Shown piece after piece: positions 15,469-26,931 of a DNA stretch of 64,000 bases; the first letter of the stretch is position 1; every line of letters begins with the position of its first letter. The notes below the pieces were generated by a model. The model was not told the DNA's origin and ran no database searches. It was given only the letters and a program-made list of their open reading frames with translations. Position numbers and translations under genes: made by a program. The stretch comes from Opitutales bacterium (GTDB lineage Bacteria > Verrucomicrobiota > Verrucomicrobiia > Opitutales > JAJFLR01): the NCBI GenBank assembly GCA_021772565.1, contig JAJFLR010000017.1, positions 1 to 64,000 of the forward strand. The letters are read 5' to 3'.

Positions 15469-17232
15469 ATGAGTGCACGCCAAAATATAATACCTGGTTT
15501 ATACATCAGTTATAAAATAAAATTGGCCTTTGCCATTGTAATAATAGTCACAGCTGTTTCAACAGCCACTTTATTTCTAACTCAAATAAAGGTTAACGAA
15601 AATTATCAGCATTTTGTAAGTAATCTTTTCCAACAACAAGTAGAACTCTTTTTTGATAAGCGACAAACTCGATTATCTGCTGCTAGAGATGCCATTGAAG
15701 ATGCCACAACTAATGTAAGATTAATTGCTGCTCTCAATGCTAATGACATCGACAGATTTTATAGCGACCTAGCATTTGAACTCACCAAAATTGTTGAGCG
15801 TTATACCAGCAATGACTCACACCTTAAACCGTTGTTTCGATTTATTGACACAGATGGAAATTATATTTCCCCAAAATCCAATAATGCCGGATACCTCATG
15901 GGAATTCCCGAGAGTAATCTTTCACAAGTCTTTAAAGATATGCTGACCAACGCTTCTGATGACAACACCGATAATGTTGGTTATCTGAATTTCACAATTA
16001 TGGAGAAAAAACATCTATTTGAAATTTTAATCATGCCAATATTTGATCCAGGTACATTTTCACATATTGGTGATCTTGTATTCGCTGCACCAGTTAATTC
16101 CATCAGTAATATTTTAGGTGTCAGTACTCAATCAATGAAATCAGGCCTTTATCTCGATGGGGAATTTTATTCAGATACTATACCAGAAGAATACCAGGAT
16201 AATATTTGTAAAGAGTCGAAAAACGTTATTAAAGGCATTATTTCCAAACCTCCAAAAGTACTGATTGATAAAATCCCGCACTTAATTTTCACAAAATCAT
16301 TAGGTGAAAATTCTCAACTTCGTGATTTTTATCAAGTATCGTTATTTTCTTTGGATGAACTGCAATTATTATTAAAAAAAATTCGTTCAACCGTCATACT
16401 GTTTACTGTGATAGCATTAGCTACTGCTATTGGACTCAGTTTAGTTACTTCTCACAATATGACCAAACCAATTTTAAACCTGGTCAGTGGCACCAAGGAA
16501 GTAAAAAAGGGAAATTTTGATATACCGGTTCCAGTTACCAGTAACGATGAACTTGGGGTACTCACTCATTCATTTAATGAGATGACTAGTGAACTAGCAA
16601 TAAAAGAAAAAATGCGCAGTGTTCTCGATAAAATTACCGATCCAGATGTCCAGGAAGAACTGCTAAAAGGCAAAATGAAACTCGGTGGTGAAGACCGTGA
16701 TTTAACAATTTTATTTTGCGACATTCGTGGCTTTACTTCCTTAACTGAGGGTATGGCTCCGACCGATGTCATCCAGATGCTTAACGAGCATATGACGGCC
16801 ATGAAAAAAGAAGTTTCAAAATATAATGGTGTAGTCGACAAATTTGTTGGTGACGAAATCATGGCGATTTTTGGCGCCCCAAAAAGTTATGGCAACGACG
16901 CACTCAATGCTGCTCAGTGTGCTTTATCGATGATGCAAGCAAGAAAGAAACTCGATGAATCTGGAAAATATAAAATTAAGATTGGTATCGGATTAGCATC
17001 CGGAAAAGTTGTTGCCGGTAATATGGGTTCAGACGATCGACAAAGTTATACCGTTTTAGGAGCACGTGTAAATTTAGCAGCCAGACTTTGTAGCGCTGCC
17101 AAACCGATGGACATTCTCATTGATGATTTAACCTGCGAACGGATAGAAAATAAAATTAAAACTGATCCAATTGTAGATTTGAAATTAAAAGGATTCAGCT
17201 CTCAGATAGTGGCCTATAAACTGACCTGTTAA
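15469..17232 (+). CDS. Membrane class III adenylate cyclase with periplasmic sensor and HAMP
   Basis: Makes cAMP from ATP. Two membrane segments (about 17-38 and 306-327) enclose a periplasmic sensor of about 265 residues (Cache-like by length and position), then a HAMP linker (about 328-380) and a catalytic domain (about 408-587). Two metal Asp are present: FCDIRGFTS (Asp418) and FVGDEIMA (Asp462). Lys458 before FVGD and Thr528 in SYTVLG form the Lys/Thr pair of ATP-specific bacterial cyclases, and Asn535 and Arg539 in VNLAARL complete the transition-state set. The enzyme looks intact. A second, broken copy of its last 156 codons lies 440 bp downstream. The sensor ligand is unknown. Confidence 0.92.
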   Translation: MSARQNIIPGLYISYKIKLAFAIVIIVTAVSTATLFLTQIKVNENYQHFVSNLFQQQVELFFDKRQTRLSAARDAIEDATTNVRLIAALNANDIDRFYSDLAFELTKIVERYTSNDSHLKPLFRFIDTDGNYISPKSNNAGYLMGIPESNLSQVFKDMLTNASDDNTDNVGYLNFTIMEKKHLFEILIMPIFDPGTFSHIGDLVFAAPVNSISNILGVSTQSMKSGLYLDGEFYSDTIPEEYQDNICKESKNVIKGIISKPPKVLIDKIPHLIFTKSLGENSQLRDFYQVSLFSLDELQLLLKKIRSTVILFTVIALATAIGLSLVTSHNMTKPILNLVSGTKEVKKGNFDIPVPVTSNDELGVLTHSFNEMTSELAIKEKMRSVLDKITDPDVQEELLKGKMKLGGEDRDLTILFCDIRGFTSLTEGMAPTDVIQMLNEHMTAMKKEVSKYNGVVDKFVGDEIMAIFGAPKSYGNDALNAAQCALSMMQARKKLDESGKYKIKIGIGLASGKVVAGNMGSDDRQSYTVLGARVNLAARLCSAAKPMDILIDDLTCERIENKIKTDPIVDLKLKGFSSQIVAYKLTC

Positions 17233-17608: not shown

Positions 17609-17676
17609 TACGATCAGTTATTGTCGATACAGGACCTCTGGTTGCGGGTTTTGATCAGAGAGATTCTGTTCGATGA
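17605..17676 (+). pseudogene. PIN-domain toxin (VapC-like) truncated after 23 codons
   Basis: The GTG-started frame reads VIVDTGPLVAGFDQRD, the classic N-terminus of a PIN ribonuclease with the first metal Asp in the VDTGPLV motif. It then hits a TGA exactly where homology to the cyclase gene begins (17671). The remaining roughly 100 residues of a PIN toxin, with the other acidic residues, are missing, so it cannot be active. The breakpoint shares CGATG with the cyclase copy, suggesting illegitimate joining at a short homology. Confidence 0.72.
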
Positions 17677-18139
17677 CATCCAGATGCTCAACGAGCATAT
17701 GACAGCGATGAAAAAGGAAGTTTCAAAATATAATTGTGAAGTCGACAAATTTGTTGGTGACGATATCATGGCAATTTTTGGCGCCCCAAAAAGTTATGGC
17801 AACGACGCACTCAATGCCGTTCAAAGTGCAATCTCTATGATAAAAGCCAGAGAGGAACTCAACAATTCTGGAAAATATAGAATAAAAATCGGTATCGGTC
17901 TCGCACCAGGAAAAGTAGTTGCCGGTAATATGGCTTCAGACGATCGACAAAGTTATACTGTTTTAAGAGCACGTGTAAATTTAGCAGCCAGACTTTGTAG
18001 CGCTGCCAAACCGATGGATATTCTCATTGATGATTTAACCTGCGAACGGATAGACAATAAAATTAAAACTGACCCAATTAAAGATTTAAAATTAAAAGGC
18101 TTTAGTTGGTAAATTGTTGCATATAAGTTGATTAGTTAA
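17671..18139 (+). pseudogene. Broken duplicate of the adenylate cyclase catalytic end
   Basis: This 469-bp stretch aligns without any gap to 16764-17232, the last 156 codons of the upstream cyclase. It starts at the second half of the catalytic domain, after the first metal Asp, so it cannot form an active site. A frame entering from the toxin remnant reads through it. Changes include DEIMA to DDIMA, GASGK-type LASGKV to LAPGKV and VLGAR to VLRAR. A CAG codon of the parent is TAA here (18110-18112), after which IVAYKL is still recognisable. Substitutions are spread over the whole copy, so it is old or came from a paralogue. Confidence 0.85.
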
Positions 18140-18247: not shown

Positions 18248-18356
18248 GTTTCAATCCGCGTCTCGCCTTAGTGGCGAGACGAATGTTTTTTGTTTGAACA
18301 ACACGAGAATCAAGCATCAGTTTCAATCCGCGTCTCGCCTTGGTGGCGAGACGAAT
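18248..18356 (-). CRISPR. Type I-C CRISPR array: two repeats, one spacer
   Basis: Two 37-nt repeats (18248-18284 and 18320-18356) differ at one base and flank one 35-nt spacer. Read on the minus strand each repeat has an 8-bp stem, GTCTCGCC with GGCGAGAC around a 5-nt loop, and ends CGGATTGAAAC, the ending typical of type I-C repeats. The cas genes lie upstream on that strand with cas2 nearest, which fits the usual cas2-leader-array order. The repeat length may be 33 nt plus 4 chance-conserved bases; two copies cannot decide. No further repeat follows in the next 130 bp. I see no match to the spacer elsewhere in the window. Confidence 0.9.
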
Positions 18357-18591: not shown

Positions 18592-18888
18592 TCAAGCAAT
18601 CAAAACATCTAACTCAAGATTAGGAGGTTGTCCAACACCATGATGCTCTGTATGATCTTTGGCTTTAGAGTCCAAAAAATAAAAGCGCAATGAATCTTTT
18701 GATAAATCAATTTCTTTGAGTAATTTATCTCTTAATTCAACCCACTCTTTACGTCCAACCTGACATTCGAATACTGACTTCTGAACTCGAATACCGTAAG
18801 ATTCACATGTTTTGGCGACACGCCTTAATCGACGTGATCCTGCTTTTAGTTCAACGGTTGATACATCATAAGTTATGAGAATTAACAT
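18592..18888 (-). CDS. cas2: CRISPR integrase subunit Cas2
   Basis: 98 residues with the Cas2 ferredoxin-like start MLILITYDVSTVE and the RRLRRVAKTCESYGIRVQKSVFEC segment, which carries the usual Arg and Tyr positions. Cas2 dimers bridge two Cas1 dimers in the spacer integration complex. The gene starts 6 bp after cas1 ends and is last in the cas4-cas1-cas2 adaptation operon, next to the leader. Length and motifs fit type I-C. Confidence 0.96.
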   Translation of the reverse strand: MLILITYDVSTVELKAGSRRLRRVAKTCESYGIRVQKSVFECQVGRKEWVELRDKLLKEIDLSKDSLRFYFLDSKAKDHTEHHGVGQPPNLELDVLIA

Positions 18889-18894
18889 CGGTTA

Positions 18895-19929
18895 TTATTT
18901 ATATAAATAAGGAATGTATTCTGGTAAATCTCCACGTATTATGCGAGCCATAATCCTGGCCTGCATAAAAGGTATTTGTCCCATTCTACAGTTATGTTTC
19001 AGTAAGGGATGCTTTATCTCGTCTTGTTTTCTTTTTTGCCAACCTTGAACTAAACTTTTTCTTCCGGAGTCTGTGAGCTCAACAGCACCGCCTTCTCTTA
19101 ATTTAAAATGTTTTTCCTGAAGCTCTCCTCTATTTATAAGAGTAATGGCCATTCGATCAGCAAATGGTCGAAATTCTTCCATTAAGTCCAGTGCTAATGA
19201 CTCTCTGCCTGGTCGATCTGCATGTAGAAAACCGACAAATGGATCGAGCCCAATTGCTGTCAATGCGGAAACACAATCATGTCTTAAAAGTGCATAGAGA
19301 AAAGAAAGCACGCAATTCATGCGGTCTCGTGGTGGCCGTTTGTTTCGATTTTTAAATGAAAAACTTTTACGTCGCTCCGATTTTAGATGTAATTCAAAAA
19401 CTTCAAAGTAATGAGTCGCCGCCATTCCTTCAAAGCCTCGTAGTGCATCAATTGTGTCAACTGTCGTTAGAAGCCGAATTTGAGTTGTGATATTTGAAAC
19501 TGCCTTCTTAAGTTTCTCAACTTCGGAATTGGTTGAACATTCCCGAGCTGTACGTTGAATCAGCCATATACTGTTGCGCAATTTTCCTGCTATAATGTTT
19601 CTGACAATTATTTGACTCTTGATGGGATCGCTGGCTATCTCATGCTGATTACGTCGTAACATTACTGAACCGCGAGGCACCCCTTCGACACGTGCTTGTA
19701 ATCTACCATTTTCGTCAAGAAAATTTATGCTGACATCGTTTTCCCAACAGAGCTTCATTGCCGAGGGTGAAACCATAGTGTGCCCAAAAATAAGAATCGA
19801 CTCAAGGTTGTGAATAGGCAGTGACATTTTGAGTTCTCTATTTTCTTCAATACGTAACGATAGATGGTCTCTATGAATATAGAGCCCCGAGTTGAGAACA
19901 TAGAGAGTATTTTGAATAACCGGAGTCAT
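18895..19929 (-). CDS. cas1: CRISPR integrase Cas1, type I-C
   Basis: 344 residues beginning MTPVIQNTLYVLNSGLYIHRDH, typical of the I-C branch. The catalytic domain is intact: Glu in RMNCVLSFLYALLRHDC is preceded by the expected helical segment, then GFLHADRPGRESLALDLMEEFRP carries the metal His and Asp/Glu. Cas1 inserts prespacers at the leader-repeat border. It overlaps cas4 by 4 bp, so the two are translationally coupled. Confidence 0.97.
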   Translation of the reverse strand: MTPVIQNTLYVLNSGLYIHRDHLSLRIEENRELKMSLPIHNLESILIFGHTMVSPSAMKLCWENDVSINFLDENGRLQARVEGVPRGSVMLRRNQHEIASDPIKSQIIVRNIIAGKLRNSIWLIQRTARECSTNSEVEKLKKAVSNITTQIRLLTTVDTIDALRGFEGMAATHYFEVFELHLKSERRKSFSFKNRNKRPPRDRMNCVLSFLYALLRHDCVSALTAIGLDPFVGFLHADRPGRESLALDLMEEFRPFADRMAITLINRGELQEKHFKLREGGAVELTDSGRKSLVQGWQKRKQDEIKHPLLKHNCRMGQIPFMQARIMARIIRGDLPEYIPYLYK

Positions 19930-20543
19930 GTTTTCAATAATTGGTGAGATGCACGATTAATATTTTTATCGTCCAATTCCGGAACACATACCTCGTGCAA
20001 TGAACATCCTTCGCATTGCGGTTTCAACTCTGCCTTCGGGATAATCCCTTTTTCAAATAAATCTCTTACTGCTTCGATAGTTTCTCTGGTCTTTTTTCGT
20101 AATTGATTATCAAATATTATCTCTGATCGAGATTGAGATTTAACGTGAAAAATTAAACCCGCAGCAACAGAAAGTCCAAACATCTCTTCCAGACATAACG
20201 CCTGGGCGCATAATTGGATGGCGTCGTTATACCATTTATTTTTTCGTTTTTTTCCGCGCTTATAATCGACGGGGCGTGCTGCAATAATTTCTTTACCTTG
20301 CTTTTGTACTTCGACTAAATCTGCTTTGCCTGTTAACCCCAATTTTTCAGAAAATAGGGGTAGCGCTCGCAAGAGTAACCAACCGGCCCGAAGTTCAAAT
20401 CCTGCTTTATCAACATGCTCGTGCGCCTGATCTCCTTCGATGGTGTATTCATTTTCAACGAATATGCATTCGATATGAATTAAGGCACAGCGTCTCCTGC
20501 AATATTGATAATGATTTAATGAGCTGATTGGGATAATCGTCAT
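19926..20543 (-). CDS. cas4: Cas4 prespacer-processing exonuclease
   Basis: 205 residues with a RecB-type nuclease core. One cysteine of the iron-sulfur site lies in the N-terminal YCRRRCAL and the other three in CEGCSLHEVC near the C-terminus. The nuclease motif is PVDYKRGKKRK (Asp and Lys of the D-x-K type), with GDQAHEHVD upstream and the Gln-Tyr-type helix IQLCAQALCLEE. In type I-C, Cas4 trims prespacers so that they carry the correct PAM. It heads a cas4-cas1-cas2 unit that is separated from cas7 by a GC-richer insert, so it may need its own promoter. Confidence 0.95.
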   Translation of the reverse strand: MTIIPISSLNHYQYCRRRCALIHIECIFVENEYTIEGDQAHEHVDKAGFELRAGWLLLRALPLFSEKLGLTGKADLVEVQKQGKEIIAARPVDYKRGKKRKNKWYNDAIQLCAQALCLEEMFGLSVAAGLIFHVKSQSRSEIIFDNQLRKKTRETIEAVRDLFEKGIIPKAELKPQCEGCSLHEVCVPELDDKNINRASHQLLKT

Positions 20544-20752: not shown

Positions 20753-21670
20753 CTAAAGTTTTTCGATTACACTTACGCCCGTAGGTAAATTTTCGGAATC
20801 AAACTCAATCACATAATCGCTAAAATCTCTCGGGAATCTTTTGGCTTTATCATCATTGTCCGATAACAAACTTACTTTAACTCTCTCAAATAATGTATGT
20901 GCCGGTGCATTGCCGAGTTTGGAATCATGTTTAAATACAATCAAACGTCTGGCTGCCATCATTCCCCTTGAGGCGGAACGATCAAGATCAAACATATTTA
21001 ATAGCGACTGCCAGAATAACTCGAGATCCGTTTCATCAAATCCGGTGGATTGAGCCTCATTGGCAGATATAAAACCATGAGTCCGATAGAGTCCATAAGG
21101 CACGATTGATTTTCGGCCAATAGTTCCGGTTATATCGCCATGATTTTTTATTTGATTTTCTGCTTCTTTTACAGTGGCAACTGACTTGCGTGTTATGGAA
21201 ATTTCCTGCTGAAGAATCGGGTCTACCGATCGTGCAAAAACCATTTGAACAGGACCACGCACCTGACCACAGTTTACTTCAGTACTCATTACGGCACCAA
21301 AAGTTCTAACATCGTAAAAATGCTGACACATCCATCTTTGTGCTTTAGTTTGATCCTCGTGCTTTTTATCTTTTGATTTAAGATTGAGCGCTTCAAATGC
21401 TTTTTCATTTTGAAGATTTAATACCCTTTTATTCTTACCTCCTTTGGTTTGAAAATAAATCTCAAAGCCTGCTTCAGCCTCTTCTTCAGACTTGGCTTTT
21501 GCTGCGACAATATAATCGCGCACTTTTCGTTTGAGACAGCCGTCGGTCACTAGTCCATGAAAAGTTTGATGGTCGATTCGTGGTAAATTTCCTGAATCCG
21601 GATCACCGTTTGGATTTCCATCTTTAACATCAAAGAATAGAACAAAGTCATATCTATTTTGTATAGCCAT
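20753..21670 (-). CDS. cas7: Cascade backbone protein Cas7 (Csd2), type I-C
   Basis: 305 residues starting with the Csd2 signature RYDFVLFFDVKDGNPNGDPD, followed by LPRIDHQTFHGLVTDGCLKRKVRDYI. Later RTFGAVMSTEVNCGQVRGPVQ is the family's central motif. Cas7 polymerises along the crRNA and forms the backbone of the type I-C effector. It is the third cas gene of the cas5-cas8c-cas7 unit, 48 bp after cas8c. No truncation is seen. Confidence 0.97.
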   Translation of the reverse strand: MAIQNRYDFVLFFDVKDGNPNGDPDSGNLPRIDHQTFHGLVTDGCLKRKVRDYIVAAKAKSEEEAEAGFEIYFQTKGGKNKRVLNLQNEKAFEALNLKSKDKKHEDQTKAQRWMCQHFYDVRTFGAVMSTEVNCGQVRGPVQMVFARSVDPILQQEISITRKSVATVKEAENQIKNHGDITGTIGRKSIVPYGLYRTHGFISANEAQSTGFDETDLELFWQSLLNMFDLDRSASRGMMAARRLIVFKHDSKLGNAPAHTLFERVKVSLLSDNDDKAKRFPRDFSDYVIEFDSENLPTGVSVIEKL

Positions 21671-21718: not shown

Positions 21719-23602
21719 TTAGTTGTTATCATTAGTCTGACTTTCTTCAGTCTTTTCACTCCTAGATTTACCTTTTGCTTCGTCAGTATTTTCAAAATAG
21801 AAGCCGAGAGCAAACTCTCCTTGTTGAACCGGGTCGGTGTTTGTCGGAAAACCATGGTTTTTAATTATTTCGTTAGAAATATTAGTTAATCGAGTATCAT
21901 ACCATTTAGCATATCCTCGCCTTTTTTTATCATTAGAGATTTTACTGATATGGTTTTTTTGTGCATCAATCAGTAGTTTTCCCATAACGGTTGCTGGTGA
22001 AGCGGAGGCTCCTGCATAATATTTATCTACGATTGTTGCATTCAGGTCTCCAAGAGCTTCTTTTTGTATTCGTGACAAAAGTCGAAACATTCGCCCACAA
22101 TGATATGCAACACTCGAATCGAGTGGATTGAGTTCTGATTTCATATATTTATTGGTGTTATGATATTGATTATCGGTTTTATAAATTCGATTGAGTATTA
22201 GACGAATGAGCGCAGCTCTTTCCGGATTACAATCACCTTCTACCCCTATTCGTTTAGTGACTAATATGAGTAAACTTATTGGCAATGGCTTATTTCGTCC
22301 CAGCAAAGAAGCTTCCCATAGTGCATAACGATATTTTGCCATTTCGGCTTCGCTATCTTTTCCTTTCGTTTTAAAGTTTGATAACAATCGCCATAACGGC
22401 CACGTTTGATAATAATTTCCTCTATCTGAAAGAATTTTCTTATCAAGTTTCACTGGACGATCTAGAATAATTTTGAGTTCATTGAACCAAGACTCAACAT
22501 TTGCACAAGCTTCTGTTAATGGAATATCAATCCACCCTCTAACGATAGCACGTGCCGCATTGCCGCTTAATGCTAAACTATAAAATCGCGTTGATGAATT
22601 AGCAGCTACACCTGATAGTTTTCCGGCGTAGGGTGATTTGTAGACTTTAACTGCTACTATCGGAACAGGAAGTTTATCCTCTGAAGATTTAGTTATCCCA
22701 TCAATGCTATTATCATCTCCATAAAGACCATCTTTAAGACCTCCCCACTCAACTGCTTTAGCAGGATTGAGAACGGTTATTTCTTCACTAGGGAAAAATA
22801 AATAGATAGTTTCTTTGGTTCGATAGTGATAGTCAGGATCCCTTCCCATGAAATTGATTGCGCGTGTGTATGCTTCGACACCTATTTCACTCATCGGGCT
22901 AATTCTTGCCTTCTTCATACCATAGGACGAAAATGCATCTTTGTCGCCCGATACTAAAGCAACGCCACTGGTATTGCCATTGGGAATAACTTTGAGTCCT
23001 GTACCATGGGCATCAACTGGGACACACAGCTCACCAGTAACCAAACAAACTGCACTCTTTTTTTTCTGCGGTGCATTTTGCTTTTCAGTATTTTGTTGCT
23101 TAACCCACCACTCTTTGAGTTCAGGCCATTGAACTGCGAGACCGTCGAAATTTTCGACTTGAAATGTAATCCAATCAGCAGCTGATACTTTTAACTCATT
23201 TAATGCACTAATTGTTTGTTCATCAGTTTCAGTGTGAGTCGATTCCAGAAATGCGACAATCGCTAATATGCCCGGATGTTGAGTGTCTGCCGCAATTGAT
23301 TTCATCTGTTGCAGAAAAAGTTTCTGCGTTTCGATCGTGCGTTCTTTTACTTCAGGATTAAACCCGGGTAAAACCCGATCCAGAGTGTCTGCACCAAGGC
23401 ATGCAATGGCTCTAGAATTACGAGAGGGAATTTTAGAAATGTCTAATGTGAGACCCTCTTTGCCGTTCCCTAAAGGTGATATGCTTTTATAAATACCGTT
23501 AATATCGATATTAATGGAGAAGCGAATTTTTTGAGAAGTAAACTCGATAGCATCGAGAAGATGCTCTCGCTGGGCAAATTTATGAAGCTCTTGAAAAATC
23601 AT
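21719..23602 (-). CDS. cas8c: Cascade large subunit Cas8c (Csd1)
   Basis: 627 residues matching Csd1/Cas8c in length and wording: MIFQELHKFAQREHLLD start, AVCLVTGELCVPVDAHGTGLKV, ALVSGDKDAFSSYGMKKA, then DYHYRTKETIYLFFP and NSSTRFYSLALSGNAARAIVRGW. Cas8c recognises the PAM and, through internal initiation, also supplies the small Cas11c subunit in known I-C systems. Its start overlaps the end of cas5 by 4 bp. The C-terminal 130 residues, where Cas11c would lie, are intact. Confidence 0.96.
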   Translation of the reverse strand: MIFQELHKFAQREHLLDAIEFTSQKIRFSINIDINGIYKSISPLGNGKEGLTLDISKIPSRNSRAIACLGADTLDRVLPGFNPEVKERTIETQKLFLQQMKSIAADTQHPGILAIVAFLESTHTETDEQTISALNELKVSAADWITFQVENFDGLAVQWPELKEWWVKQQNTEKQNAPQKKKSAVCLVTGELCVPVDAHGTGLKVIPNGNTSGVALVSGDKDAFSSYGMKKARISPMSEIGVEAYTRAINFMGRDPDYHYRTKETIYLFFPSEEITVLNPAKAVEWGGLKDGLYGDDNSIDGITKSSEDKLPVPIVAVKVYKSPYAGKLSGVAANSSTRFYSLALSGNAARAIVRGWIDIPLTEACANVESWFNELKIILDRPVKLDKKILSDRGNYYQTWPLWRLLSNFKTKGKDSEAEMAKYRYALWEASLLGRNKPLPISLLILVTKRIGVEGDCNPERAALIRLILNRIYKTDNQYHNTNKYMKSELNPLDSSVAYHCGRMFRLLSRIQKEALGDLNATIVDKYYAGASASPATVMGKLLIDAQKNHISKISNDKKRRGYAKWYDTRLTNISNEIIKNHGFPTNTDPVQQGEFALGFYFENTDEAKGKSRSEKTEESQTNDNN

Positions 23603-24321
23603 GCTTCAGCCTTTTTGAAAAGGTTCATTCGCATTTTAGTTACGTCCAAAACTCCTTTTTCCAATTTTGCAGGAGCAAACAAGAATTTAGCTTCTTTGAA
23701 TAATGGTTTAATAACAGCATCCGAACTGAGATCGCGTTCCATATCGTAAAGCATCAATCCCAAATCGCGGCTGTCATCAAACACCTGTTCGTCGCCATTT
23801 GGTTTTGAGAAAAAAGCCGCGCACTCTTTAATTCCCAAATAGGGTTGCCTGAAACATTGCCCTTTAATACATCTACGTTCAAACATATCCTGATATTTCT
23901 TCGGATTGTCTTCTGCATTCGGATTACGAACAGTCATACTGGCTTCAATGATGTATGCAACATCGCGCAACATAATACTATTTCGCTGAGTGCGGTTTTC
24001 ACCCTGAATATCGTTTCGTCCGGCAGAATCGACAAAATAGGGCTGGAAATTCGTCGGGTCTTTTTTTATTTCATCAGGCTTACGACGACTAATCACACCT
24101 TGAATTTCATTTCTACGAACAGATATTTGTTGAATCGGTTTTAAGACGAGAATCCGGTCGATTTCATAAAATATTTGTGGTTTCCAGAATATCGCTTCTA
24201 ATACACCTCGTGCTGCCGAAGGTGTCATGACCGGGTAACTCAGTCGCTCGACTTTAAATTCAGGCGAAGTAAACAGAGCGTAGTCACTCCAGACTTTAAG
24301 CGATATTGGAATTTTTTTCAT
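23599..24321 (-). CDS. cas5: Cas5c (Cas5d), crRNA-processing endonuclease of type I-C
   Basis: 240 residues with the Cas5 RAMP fold: PISLKVWSDYALFTSPEFKVERLSY is typical of the I-C variant and is followed by MTPSAARGVLEAIFWKP. In type I-C, which lacks Cas6, this protein cleaves the repeat at the base of its hairpin and leaves an 11-nt 5' handle, then stays in Cascade. RQPYLGIKECAAFF is the usual C-terminal half motif. The gene begins 8 bp after the 49-codon gene, so both are read from the promoter near 24550. Confidence 0.96.
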   Translation of the reverse strand: MKKIPISLKVWSDYALFTSPEFKVERLSYPVMTPSAARGVLEAIFWKPQIFYEIDRILVLKPIQQISVRRNEIQGVISRRKPDEIKKDPTNFQPYFVDSAGRNDIQGENRTQRNSIMLRDVAYIIEASMTVRNPNAEDNPKKYQDMFERRCIKGQCFRQPYLGIKECAAFFSKPNGDEQVFDDSRDLGLMLYDMERDLSSDAVIKPLFKEAKFLFAPAKLEKGVLDVTKMRMNLFKKAEA

Positions 24322-24329
24322 ATTGGTGT

Positions 24330-24479
24330 TTATATTTTTTCTAATTCCAAAATTTTATTGTCAATATCTAAAAATGGTTGATTAAACTTTTTGCTCAAAT
24401 TCGTAATGACTACAAAATTTTCATTATCATCTTTAATTATGGCTAAATCATGTTGAATAAATATCCAAATTTTTTTCAT
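24330..24479 (-). CDS. Unrecognised 49-residue protein, first gene of the cas5-cas8c-cas7 operon
   Basis: An ATG-started frame of 49 codons begins MKKIWIFIQHDLAIIKDD and ends NKILELEKI. It has no membrane segment and no family I recognise; it is rich in Ile, Asp and Lys. It lies about 40 nt behind a predicted promoter and ends 8 bp before cas5, so it should be co-expressed with Cascade and be subject to the same control. It could be a real small accessory protein, a leader peptide, or chance. A role as the toxin of a CreTA-like pair is possible in principle but nothing in the protein shows it. Confidence 0.5.
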   Translation of the reverse strand: MKKIWIFIQHDLAIIKDDNENFVVITNLSKKFNQPFLDIDNKILELEKI

Positions 24480-24515: not shown

Positions 24516-24550
24516 TAGCAACAATTAGTAGAACAAAAATTTTATGTCAA
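24516..24550 (-). promoter_or_regulatory. Predicted cas operon promoter with embedded match to the adjacent guide
   Basis: On the minus strand a perfect TTGACA (24550-24545) is followed 15 nt later by ACTAAT (24529-24524, 4 of 6 to TATAAT). The segment 24531-24516 reads CTACTAATTGTTGCTA and matches the start of the guide-like sequence beside it (CTACTTATTGTAGCTA) at 14 of 16 positions. The match covers the predicted -10 region. A Cascade complex bound here should block transcription of orf49-cas5-cas8c-cas7. The -10 spacing is short (15 bp), so the exact promoter is uncertain. Confidence 0.65.
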
Positions 24551-24556
24551 TTAAAA

Positions 24557-24587
24557 ACCCCAAAAAAAATCAAATTTTTTTTGGGGT
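24557..24587 (-). terminator. Intrinsic terminator of the crRNA-like RNA
   Basis: Perfect 13-bp stem, ACCCCAAAAAAAA with TTTTTTTTGGGGT around a 5-nt loop, followed on the minus strand by TTTT. It ends the transcript that contains the repeat-like hairpin and guide, immediately before the TTGACA of the cas promoter. Confidence 0.88.
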
Positions 24588-24652
24588 GATATAATTCGCT
24601 TAATAGCTACAATAAGTAGGTTTCAATCCGCTCATCAACATTGATAAGAAAT
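24557..24652 (-). ncRNA. Candidate crRNA-like regulatory RNA (single pseudo-repeat, guide, terminator)
   Basis: Minus-strand order: a 33-nt repeat-like unit (24652-24620), a 32-nt guide-like segment (24619-24588), then a terminator hairpin. The unit ends CGGATTGAAAC, identical to the last 11 nt of the array repeats and equal to the 5' handle length left by Cas5c. Its stem is quite different in sequence (CTTATCA with TGATGAG, one G-T wobble, 4-nt loop) but keeps the fold. The terminator stem takes the place of the next repeat's hairpin. The guide's first 16 nt match the neighbouring cas promoter. Weak promoter elements are TTGTAA (24684-24679) and GATATT (24660-24655). Read-through from cas3 is also possible. 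CreR/CreA-type RNAs are the known parallel. Confidence 0.75.
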
Positions 24653-24696: not shown

Positions 24697-26931
24697 TTAT
24701 AAAATATTTCCTAGTGCAATCGCTTTATTATTAAAACCAATAAATTTATTATATGCTACATTCTCAGTAACAAAGCAGCCGTTACTTAATTCTTGTATCA
24801 ATGAATTATTACATGCCTCGCGAATGACAGAGCTACGAAGATTAATTGAATATGGCCCCATTTGACGCTGCAGTTTTCTATCCGGCGGTAAATCTCGGAA
24901 ATTGCACAACTCTAAAATTAACTTTTTTCCCTTTTCACTCCATGGAGCCAATACTGAATAAGAATCATCATTTTCAATCCAACGATAGTCGCGAGCTATC
25001 TGTTTAAACTGCAAACGTTCTGCACTACGTTCGATTGTTTTGGCATCTAAATTTGCACTGTTATAAAGTAGTCGAAAGTACTTCTGGATCGTATTAGCCG
25101 AAACTTGTGTTTGTTCATCATGTAAAAGCCCAAACGCGGTATTAGTTCCTGTAGTGTAAACGTTGTCACTAACGATCTTATCATTTTCAATTTCAACTAC
25201 AAAAACCGGCAATGGTTCCTTTGATTCGCTATTTCGATTGCAGCGCCCGGCTGTCTGAATTATGGAATCGAGTGGTCCTTTTGAACGATACGCCAGCGGA
25301 AAATCTACATCAACTCCGGCTTCAATTAATTGTGTGGAAAATGTTATACAACGCTGCTGAGTTTTCAATCGCATTTTAATCTCTGCCAAAACTTCCAAAC
25401 GGTGCATTGGGCACATCAAAGTCGAGAGATGAAAGACGCCATCGGAATTATTACTTAAATCACGGAATTGTCGCCAGGCTGCTTGCGCTGATTTCCGTGT
25501 ATTAAAAACAGCTAAAACTTGAAACGCACAACCAGATTTTTTTTCTTTTTCAATAAGTTCTTCGCAAAATGATTCAATTGACAACGGAGATGGCTCATTT
25601 CGTTTGATAATACGTGTTCGCTGGAATTCTGCATGATCAGACAAATTCATCGATTCGGGAATTATTTCTCTCATATTCTCAAAACCATCTGTTAGATTCA
25701 GTGATTTCTTGAATGCGGGTTGAGTAGCGGTGCAAAAGACCAGGCTAGTCCGACCAATTTCTACTAGAGCATTTAAACGTTTGAGCGTTGGATTCAATAA
25801 TCGAGAAGGGAATGTTTGACATTCATCAAATATAATAACGGCGTCCAATAATCGATGGACCTTACGGCAGGCAGAGGTTCGATTACTCATCAAGCTTTCA
25901 AAGAATTGAACATTTGTCGTGACAATAACTTCAGCGTTCCAGTTTTCCGAAGCCCGCTTTTCCCAAATCTCTGTTATTTCATCTTTATCCGAATTATCAG
26001 ATTTCCGACGCCATTCAGCTAATGAATGATGTTCAAGAACAACTCCTTCTCCCAGTGCCCCACTAATAACTTTAGCATTTTGTTCAATAATACTTGTGTA
26101 GGGTATGACATAAATTATGCGTTCAAATTTATGCTTAATCGCATGTTCAAGTGCAAATGCTAACGAAGATAATGTTTTGCCACCGCCTGTCGGTATTGTT
26201 AGTGAAAAAATACCCGATTCTGTTGTAACTCCTTGAGAGAAACATTTTTTAAATAATTGAGTGCGGATTTTATCGATACTATTCTCTTGTTTAAACTTAC
26301 TGACATATTTACGTAAACGTTTGCTCAATTCAGTCATAGCAATTGGCAAGTAAGGATTAATTGGCTTACCTTCTGTTTCTCTAAAGTGCCGTTCGGTATC
26401 GAGAAAATCCGCATCGACCAGAGCAGAAAAAATTATTCGTGTAGCAATTTCCCTATCAATCTCAGACAACTCGTCGAAGCTTTGGGGTTTAGTTAGTTTT
26501 TTATCACTGTCATCTTTAAAGGTCTTCCAGCAGGTCTCAAAAACTGTACTATTTGATATTAATTTATCTTCCAATTCTTTCGCATAATCATCAGTCCAAT
26601 TTTGTAATCCCATATGATGACCGGCAATACAGTTAGCCATCAATGGAGATTGCCATTTGTGATTTTGATAGAACATCCCAGCCCCAACCCATGCATGAGG
26701 AGTTGTTGAAGATTTGTCTTTAAGGTAATTCTGAAACTGATCCTGATATTTACCTAAATCATGCAACATGCCAAGCAATCGACCTGTTTTACTCCATGGA
26801 GTGTTTTTTAGAAAGTCAGCAGCTAATTTTGCAACTTCTTCAGCATGATGACTTAGTAATTGCCATTTACTTTTGTCTAATATTTTTTCTTTGTTTGAAT
26901 CGTTCGCAGTATGAGCATAAAACGGCATCAA
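24697..26931 (-). CDS. cas3: Cas3 nuclease-helicase, type I-C
   Basis: 744 residues. N-terminal HD nuclease: LSHHAEEVAKLAADF, MLHDLGKYQDQF (His57 and Asp58) and AGHHMG. Helicase: TGGGKT Walker A (248-253), the DEAH-type motif as FDECQTF (about 368-374), SLVFCTATQPAF, TFSTQLIEAGVDVDFP and QTAGRCNRN motif VI. It degrades DNA marked by Cascade. Unlike usual compact I-C operons, cas3 is separated from cas5 by 375 bp that hold a terminator, the crRNA-like element and the 49-codon gene, so cas3 can be expressed independently of Cascade. The upstream 279 bp are AT-rich with no gene. Confidence 0.97.
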   Translation of the reverse strand: MMPFYAHTANDSNKEKILDKSKWQLLSHHAEEVAKLAADFLKNTPWSKTGRLLGMLHDLGKYQDQFQNYLKDKSSTTPHAWVGAGMFYQNHKWQSPLMANCIAGHHMGLQNWTDDYAKELEDKLISNSTVFETCWKTFKDDSDKKLTKPQSFDELSEIDREIATRIIFSALVDADFLDTERHFRETEGKPINPYLPIAMTELSKRLRKYVSKFKQENSIDKIRTQLFKKCFSQGVTTESGIFSLTIPTGGGKTLSSLAFALEHAIKHKFERIIYVIPYTSIIEQNAKVISGALGEGVVLEHHSLAEWRRKSDNSDKDEITEIWEKRASENWNAEVIVTTNVQFFESLMSNRTSACRKVHRLLDAVIIFDECQTFPSRLLNPTLKRLNALVEIGRTSLVFCTATQPAFKKSLNLTDGFENMREIIPESMNLSDHAEFQRTRIIKRNEPSPLSIESFCEELIEKEKKSGCAFQVLAVFNTRKSAQAAWRQFRDLSNNSDGVFHLSTLMCPMHRLEVLAEIKMRLKTQQRCITFSTQLIEAGVDVDFPLAYRSKGPLDSIIQTAGRCNRNSESKEPLPVFVVEIENDKIVSDNVYTTGTNTAFGLLHDEQTQVSANTIQKYFRLLYNSANLDAKTIERSAERLQFKQIARDYRWIENDDSYSVLAPWSEKGKKLILELCNFRDLPPDRKLQRQMGPYSINLRSSVIREACNNSLIQELSNGCFVTENVAYNKFIGFNNKAIALGNIL

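Follow-up and report, generated by a model that had tools for sequence, protein, structure and literature searches.

The window, by which we mean the whole 64,000-nucleotide stretch of Opitutales bacterium DNA that was analysed, carries a complete type I-C CRISPR-Cas operon on its minus strand. The operon consists of cas3, a gap of 375 bp, cas5c, cas8c, cas7, cas4, cas1, cas2 and a CRISPR array. Within the gap lies the end of a lone repeat, followed by a spacer-like guide, a terminator and a short stretch that resembles the beginning of the guide. The features are given below, from cas3 towards the array.

24697-26931, minus strand: cas3 (HD and helicase, 744 aa; NCBIfam TIGR01587, TIGR01596), the upstream neighbour
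24631-24648, minus strand: hairpin of the degenerate repeat, CTTATCA-ATGT-TGATGAG (fold, alignment with the array repeat, hairpin scan in relatives)
24620-24630, minus strand: 11-nt 5' handle CGGATTGAAAC, the same as the end of the array repeat (search of the genome with GCGGATTGAAAC)
24588-24619, minus strand: spacer-like guide of 32 nt, CTACTTATTGTAGCTATTAAGCGAATTATATC (sequence; match statistics)
24557-24587, minus strand: strong intrinsic terminator
24545-24550, minus strand: TTGACA, a -35-like element ahead of the cas5 operon, part of a putative promoter (sequence)
24532-24534, minus strand: PAM position, GTT (TTC in most relatives)
24516-24531, minus strand: target, 14 of 16 positions identical to the guide (alignment, shuffles, genome-wide pattern search)
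24330-24479, minus strand: ORF of 49 aa between the target and cas5
23599-24321, minus strand: cas5c, the presumed guide-RNA processing enzyme (TIGR01876)
21719-23602, minus strand: cas8c (TIGR01863)
20753-21670, minus strand: cas7 (csd2; TIGR02589)
18592-20543, minus strand: cas4, cas1 and cas2 (TIGR00372, TIGR03640, TIGR01573)
18248-18356, minus strand: CRISPR array of two 37-nt repeats with one 35-nt spacer between them

The array is nearly empty, holding two repeats and one spacer, though all cas genes appear intact. One scan of viral contigs with 24 nt of this single spacer gave no exact match. Beside the array we observed a direct repeat (300 nt, 87%; window positions 16764-17063 and 17671-17970), in which the 3' portion of a cyclase-like gene is present a second time as a partial copy.

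The lone repeat end is located about 65 nt past the stop codon of cas3. Its identity is clear from the motif GCGGATTGAAAC, of which the 3.57-Mb genome has exactly three copies, namely in the two array repeats and in the lone repeat. In place of the array-repeat stem stands a different 7-bp hairpin; this replacement stem still pairs and stops exactly where the 11-nt handle starts, as the stem of the array repeats does. The predicted fold of the guide RNA, terminator included, lies 3.8 standard deviations above shuffled sequences in stability. Transcription of the guide RNA, and probably that of cas3 as well, would end at this terminator. The guide follows cas3 closely on a shared strand, and the only terminator found there comes after it; for this reason the guide RNA of the window probably derives from the 3' end of the cas3 message. 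The guide-RNA gene has the opposite orientation in most relatives.

The initial annotation had reported that the guide matches a site in front of the cas operon with two mismatches, and direct alignment reproduced both the match and its position. Nucleotides 1-16 of the guide, CTACTTATTGTAGCTA (24619-24604, minus strand), agree with the target CTACTAATTGTTGCTA (24531-24516, minus strand) at 14 of 16 positions, the only mismatches being at positions 6 and 12. The target is located about 200 nt upstream of cas5. The earlier observation that the match stops after nucleotide 16 was also reproduced: guide positions 17-32 agree with the extension of the target at 4 of 16 positions, which is chance level, and the match is confined to the PAM-proximal part. 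A rough estimate in the initial annotation that such similarity is unlikely to arise by chance can now be given in numbers. When the target region was shuffled 20,000 times with dinucleotides preserved and both strands were compared, one shuffle reached 14/16 and two matched the whole seed (positions 1-5 and 7-11). Within the 3.57-Mb genome, the 14-position pattern CTACTNATTGTNGCTA, in which positions 6 and 12 are free, occurs at the guide and at the target only.

Covariation of guide and promoter in related genomes had been suggested as a check, with independent divergence of the two as the result that would speak against a functional pair. For this check we assembled 174 distinct cas5c loci, drawn partly from genomes of the window's order and phylum and partly from a bacteria-wide scan, with no other genome of the window's own family among them, and searched for the solitary handle GGATTGAAA[CT] outside arrays and within 1.7 kb upstream of cas5. 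Nineteen solitary handles were found, and 13 of them possess a target near cas5 by the seed criterion. When guides were swapped and tried on the regions of other loci, 8 of 3,340 combinations (0.24%) passed the same criterion. The guides are unrelated from locus to locus. Each fits a target of its own, placed before cas5 or before a toxin-like gene, and the pattern at positions 6 and 12 is the same. Even between G038 and G053, two genomes that share a genus, the guides differ and the targets differ correspondingly, the opposite of independent divergence.

As choosing targets by their seed biases the count of mismatches, we repeated the count using a cut-off on total matches only (at least 13 of 16), which yielded 12 loci. 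Among them are loci of Desulfonema magnum, Selenomonas ruminantium, MAGs of Lachnospiraceae, Aestuariivirgaceae and Phycisphaerales, and several genomes of the window's phylum. Of the 21 mismatches in the 12 loci, 17 fall on two positions (9 on position 6, 8 on position 12), where together about 2.6 would be expected. TTC is found at the PAM position in 9 of the 12. At loci with arrays in view, the lone handle is identical to the handle of the local array (CGGATTGAAAC or TGGATTGAAAT) and the stem is different, the sole exception to handle identity being L098, where the last base differs. Terminator-like hairpins start 22-32 nt past the start of the guide in ten loci including the window. In two loci (L073 and L159) no clear target accompanies the handle, hairpin and terminator, and L035 is doubtful because it carries two handles, apparently within a short tandem duplication.

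The initial annotation had placed the target over the predicted -10 element of a promoter with a perfect TTGACA. The TTGACA is present (24550-24545), but the proposed -10 fared less well: the available partners are poor, and the score of the site falls short of the median for the best sites of shuffled sequences. A consensus scan for sigma-70 promoters listed none at the target region. Mainly because this region sits between the terminator and the operon, we infer that it holds the cas5 promoter, whose exact position is putative. The concern raised earlier about the PAM was justified, as GTT lies directly 5' of the match. A register shifted by one would give TTC and move the mismatches to positions 5 and 11; it was rejected, as relatives with TTC show the 6/12 pattern in the direct register. 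Since the handle and the 6/12 pattern fix the register, we take GTT as the actual sequence at the PAM position. The Cascade of the window may read a PAM other than TTC, which is conceivable given that its Cas5c shares only 42-45% identity with the other Cas5c proteins in the alignment. A weak PAM may also be a part of how self-cleavage is avoided.

We propose that the gene between cas3 and cas5, which is crRNA-like and has one repeat, encodes a guide RNA of the CreR type that loads Cascade and autorepresses cas5-cas8c-cas7, and we assign this reading a probability of roughly 0.88. Cas5c would cut at the base of the hairpin to release a small RNA that would begin with CGGAUUGAAAC and would load the I-C Cascade (Cas5c, Cas8c, Cas7). 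Positions 1-5, 7-11 and 13-16 of the guide would then pair with the DNA about 200 nt upstream of cas5, and the loaded Cascade would block transcription without cutting by Cas3, because the guide-target match ends at nucleotide 16. The outcome would be negative feedback on cas5-cas8c-cas7, a repression predicted to ease once crRNAs from the array or anti-CRISPRs occupy Cascade. The notion that the guide RNA is aimed at the promoter of cas5-cas8c-cas7 was already put forward in the initial annotation and is supported by the locus-specific guide-target pairs, with the promoter position and the repression itself being predictions. The seed of CreA is required at nucleotides 1-5 and 7-11 and dispensable at 6 and 12 (PMC8501985), and I-C Cascade represses in the absence of Cas3 when aimed at promoters (PMC10865793). 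Taken together, these reports make an autorepressor of the CreR type the simplest reading.

CreR (cas-regulating RNA; Liu et al. 2023) is described in two later summaries (PMC12737573, PMC13131331), the experimental cases named in the latter belonging to types I-B, I-E and V-A. The likeness to CreR as summarised there is close: a crRNA-like RNA with a degenerate repeat in the cas locus, a partial match before its own cas operon and predicted autorepression. In the window, as in the relatives, a degenerate ectopic repeat lies inside the cas locus with the cognate array's 5' handle retained, and the guide seed (1-5, 7-11) pairs with the DNA before its own cas operon. The window differs from CreR in being type I-C, in having one repeat plus a terminator, in its presumed processing by Cas5c and in the GTT at the PAM position. 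CreA, the RNA of the type I-B CreTA modules of H. hispanica and H. hubeiense, likewise has a matched seed at 1-5 and 7-11 with positions 6 and 12 free, and in H. hispanica it also consists of one psi-repeat and a terminator (PMC8501985). In contrast to the window, where the nearest genes are cas genes and the 49-aa ORF, CreA represses a toxin RNA. The guide of the window is most likely a CreR-type autoregulatory guide, its mechanism known in kind from CreR and CreA and here proposed for type I-C. Standalone repeats (crRNA-like elements) with guides that match promoters of cas or cargo genes, mostly in type I, have reportedly been surveyed by Shmakov et al. in 2023 (NAR 51:8150). In the literature searched, to which these two 2023 papers by Liu et al. 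and by Shmakov et al. did not belong, no CreR or CreTA in type I-C was found.

An addiction module similar to CreTA would place the emphasis differently. The guide would mainly repress a toxin, either the product of the 49-aa ORF (24479-24330) or a toxin RNA in the leader, and loss of Cascade would poison the cell. The target does lie immediately before the 49-aa ORF and also upstream of cas5, and at three other loci the same RNA design is aimed at sequence in front of a PIN-domain gene. There, RHH (FitA-like) and PIN-domain genes are located between cas3 and cas5 (L017, 718-1420; L022, 688-1426; L169, between guide RNA and cas5, where the two genes were assigned by resemblance to the former two loci and not by profile search). 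The PIN gene is followed by the guide RNA, and the target, which has a TTC PAM, lies just upstream of that gene. Judged from this arrangement, the PIN gene is possibly a protein toxin repressed by Cascade, reminiscent of CrePA (PMC12737573), in which a protein toxin is also under Cascade repression; CreP, however, is a KilA-N FtsZ inhibitor, and the window has no such gene. For the window itself we consider an addiction module unlikely. For the 49-aa ORF, neither a Pfam match nor a relative among 86 other genomes was found; it ends 8 nt before the start codon of cas5 on the same strand, with cas5 following directly, and at most other loci (e.g. L050, L079, L083 and L171) the target stands without a toxin-like gene.

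The repeat is degenerate and the array nearly empty, as one would expect if a decaying repeat with its spacer had been left behind by a rearrangement of the array and resembled nearby DNA by chance. Such a remnant is very improbable in view of the match statistics, with 1 of 20,000 shuffles and a pattern unique to guide and target in the genome. In addition, the replacement stem still pairs, and the arrangement recurs in distant phyla together with guide-target covariation. We give the least credence to an anti-CRISPR RNA (Racr), a solitary repeat acting as a decoy that sequesters Cas proteins. Solitary I-C repeats of prophages do inhibit I-C systems (RacrIC1; PMC10651486), and a solitary repeat is what the window shares with them. 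Racrs, however, are borne by phages or plasmids and are decoys with no target match, whereas the lone repeat sits between cas3 and cas5 of a complete host cas locus and not in a mobile element, and its guide matches the upstream region of the operon, a match that a decoy does not need.

An autorepressing guide of the CreR type in the window would extend RNA-guided self-control of CRISPR-Cas to type I-C, the minimal and widely used system with Cas5 as the processing enzyme. A broader claim, for which we see about even odds, is that I-C loci in several phyla use one-repeat guides processed by Cas5c to repress either the cas operon or, in the window's phylum, a PIN toxin between cas3 and cas5, with the guide of the window working from a non-TTC PAM. 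This would amount to an extension of CreR to I-C and to a new CreTA with a protein toxin. The version with a PIN gene touches on a question raised in a review (PMC12737573), namely whether toxins beyond the FtsZ inhibitor are coupled to repression by Cascade. About a dozen guide-target pairs are now at hand for studying repression by short matches without cutting, some of them in cultured or nameable groups such as Desulfonema magnum and Selenomonas ruminantium.

Two genomes of one genus (L016, 2351-2542, plus strand; L019, 1182-1370, minus strand) carry short look-alike ORFs that contain hydrophobic stretches and lie immediately before the guide RNA. In L019 a second, weaker target with TTC adjoins the start of this ORF. 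The ORFs of both genomes, which resemble small membrane proteins, are possible small membrane toxins. At two further loci (L050, 9669-9731; L098, 4977-5180) the order is target, guide RNA, cas5, and the guide RNA is on the cas5 strand. Here the leader of the mRNA may yield, by cutting, the very guide that represses it.
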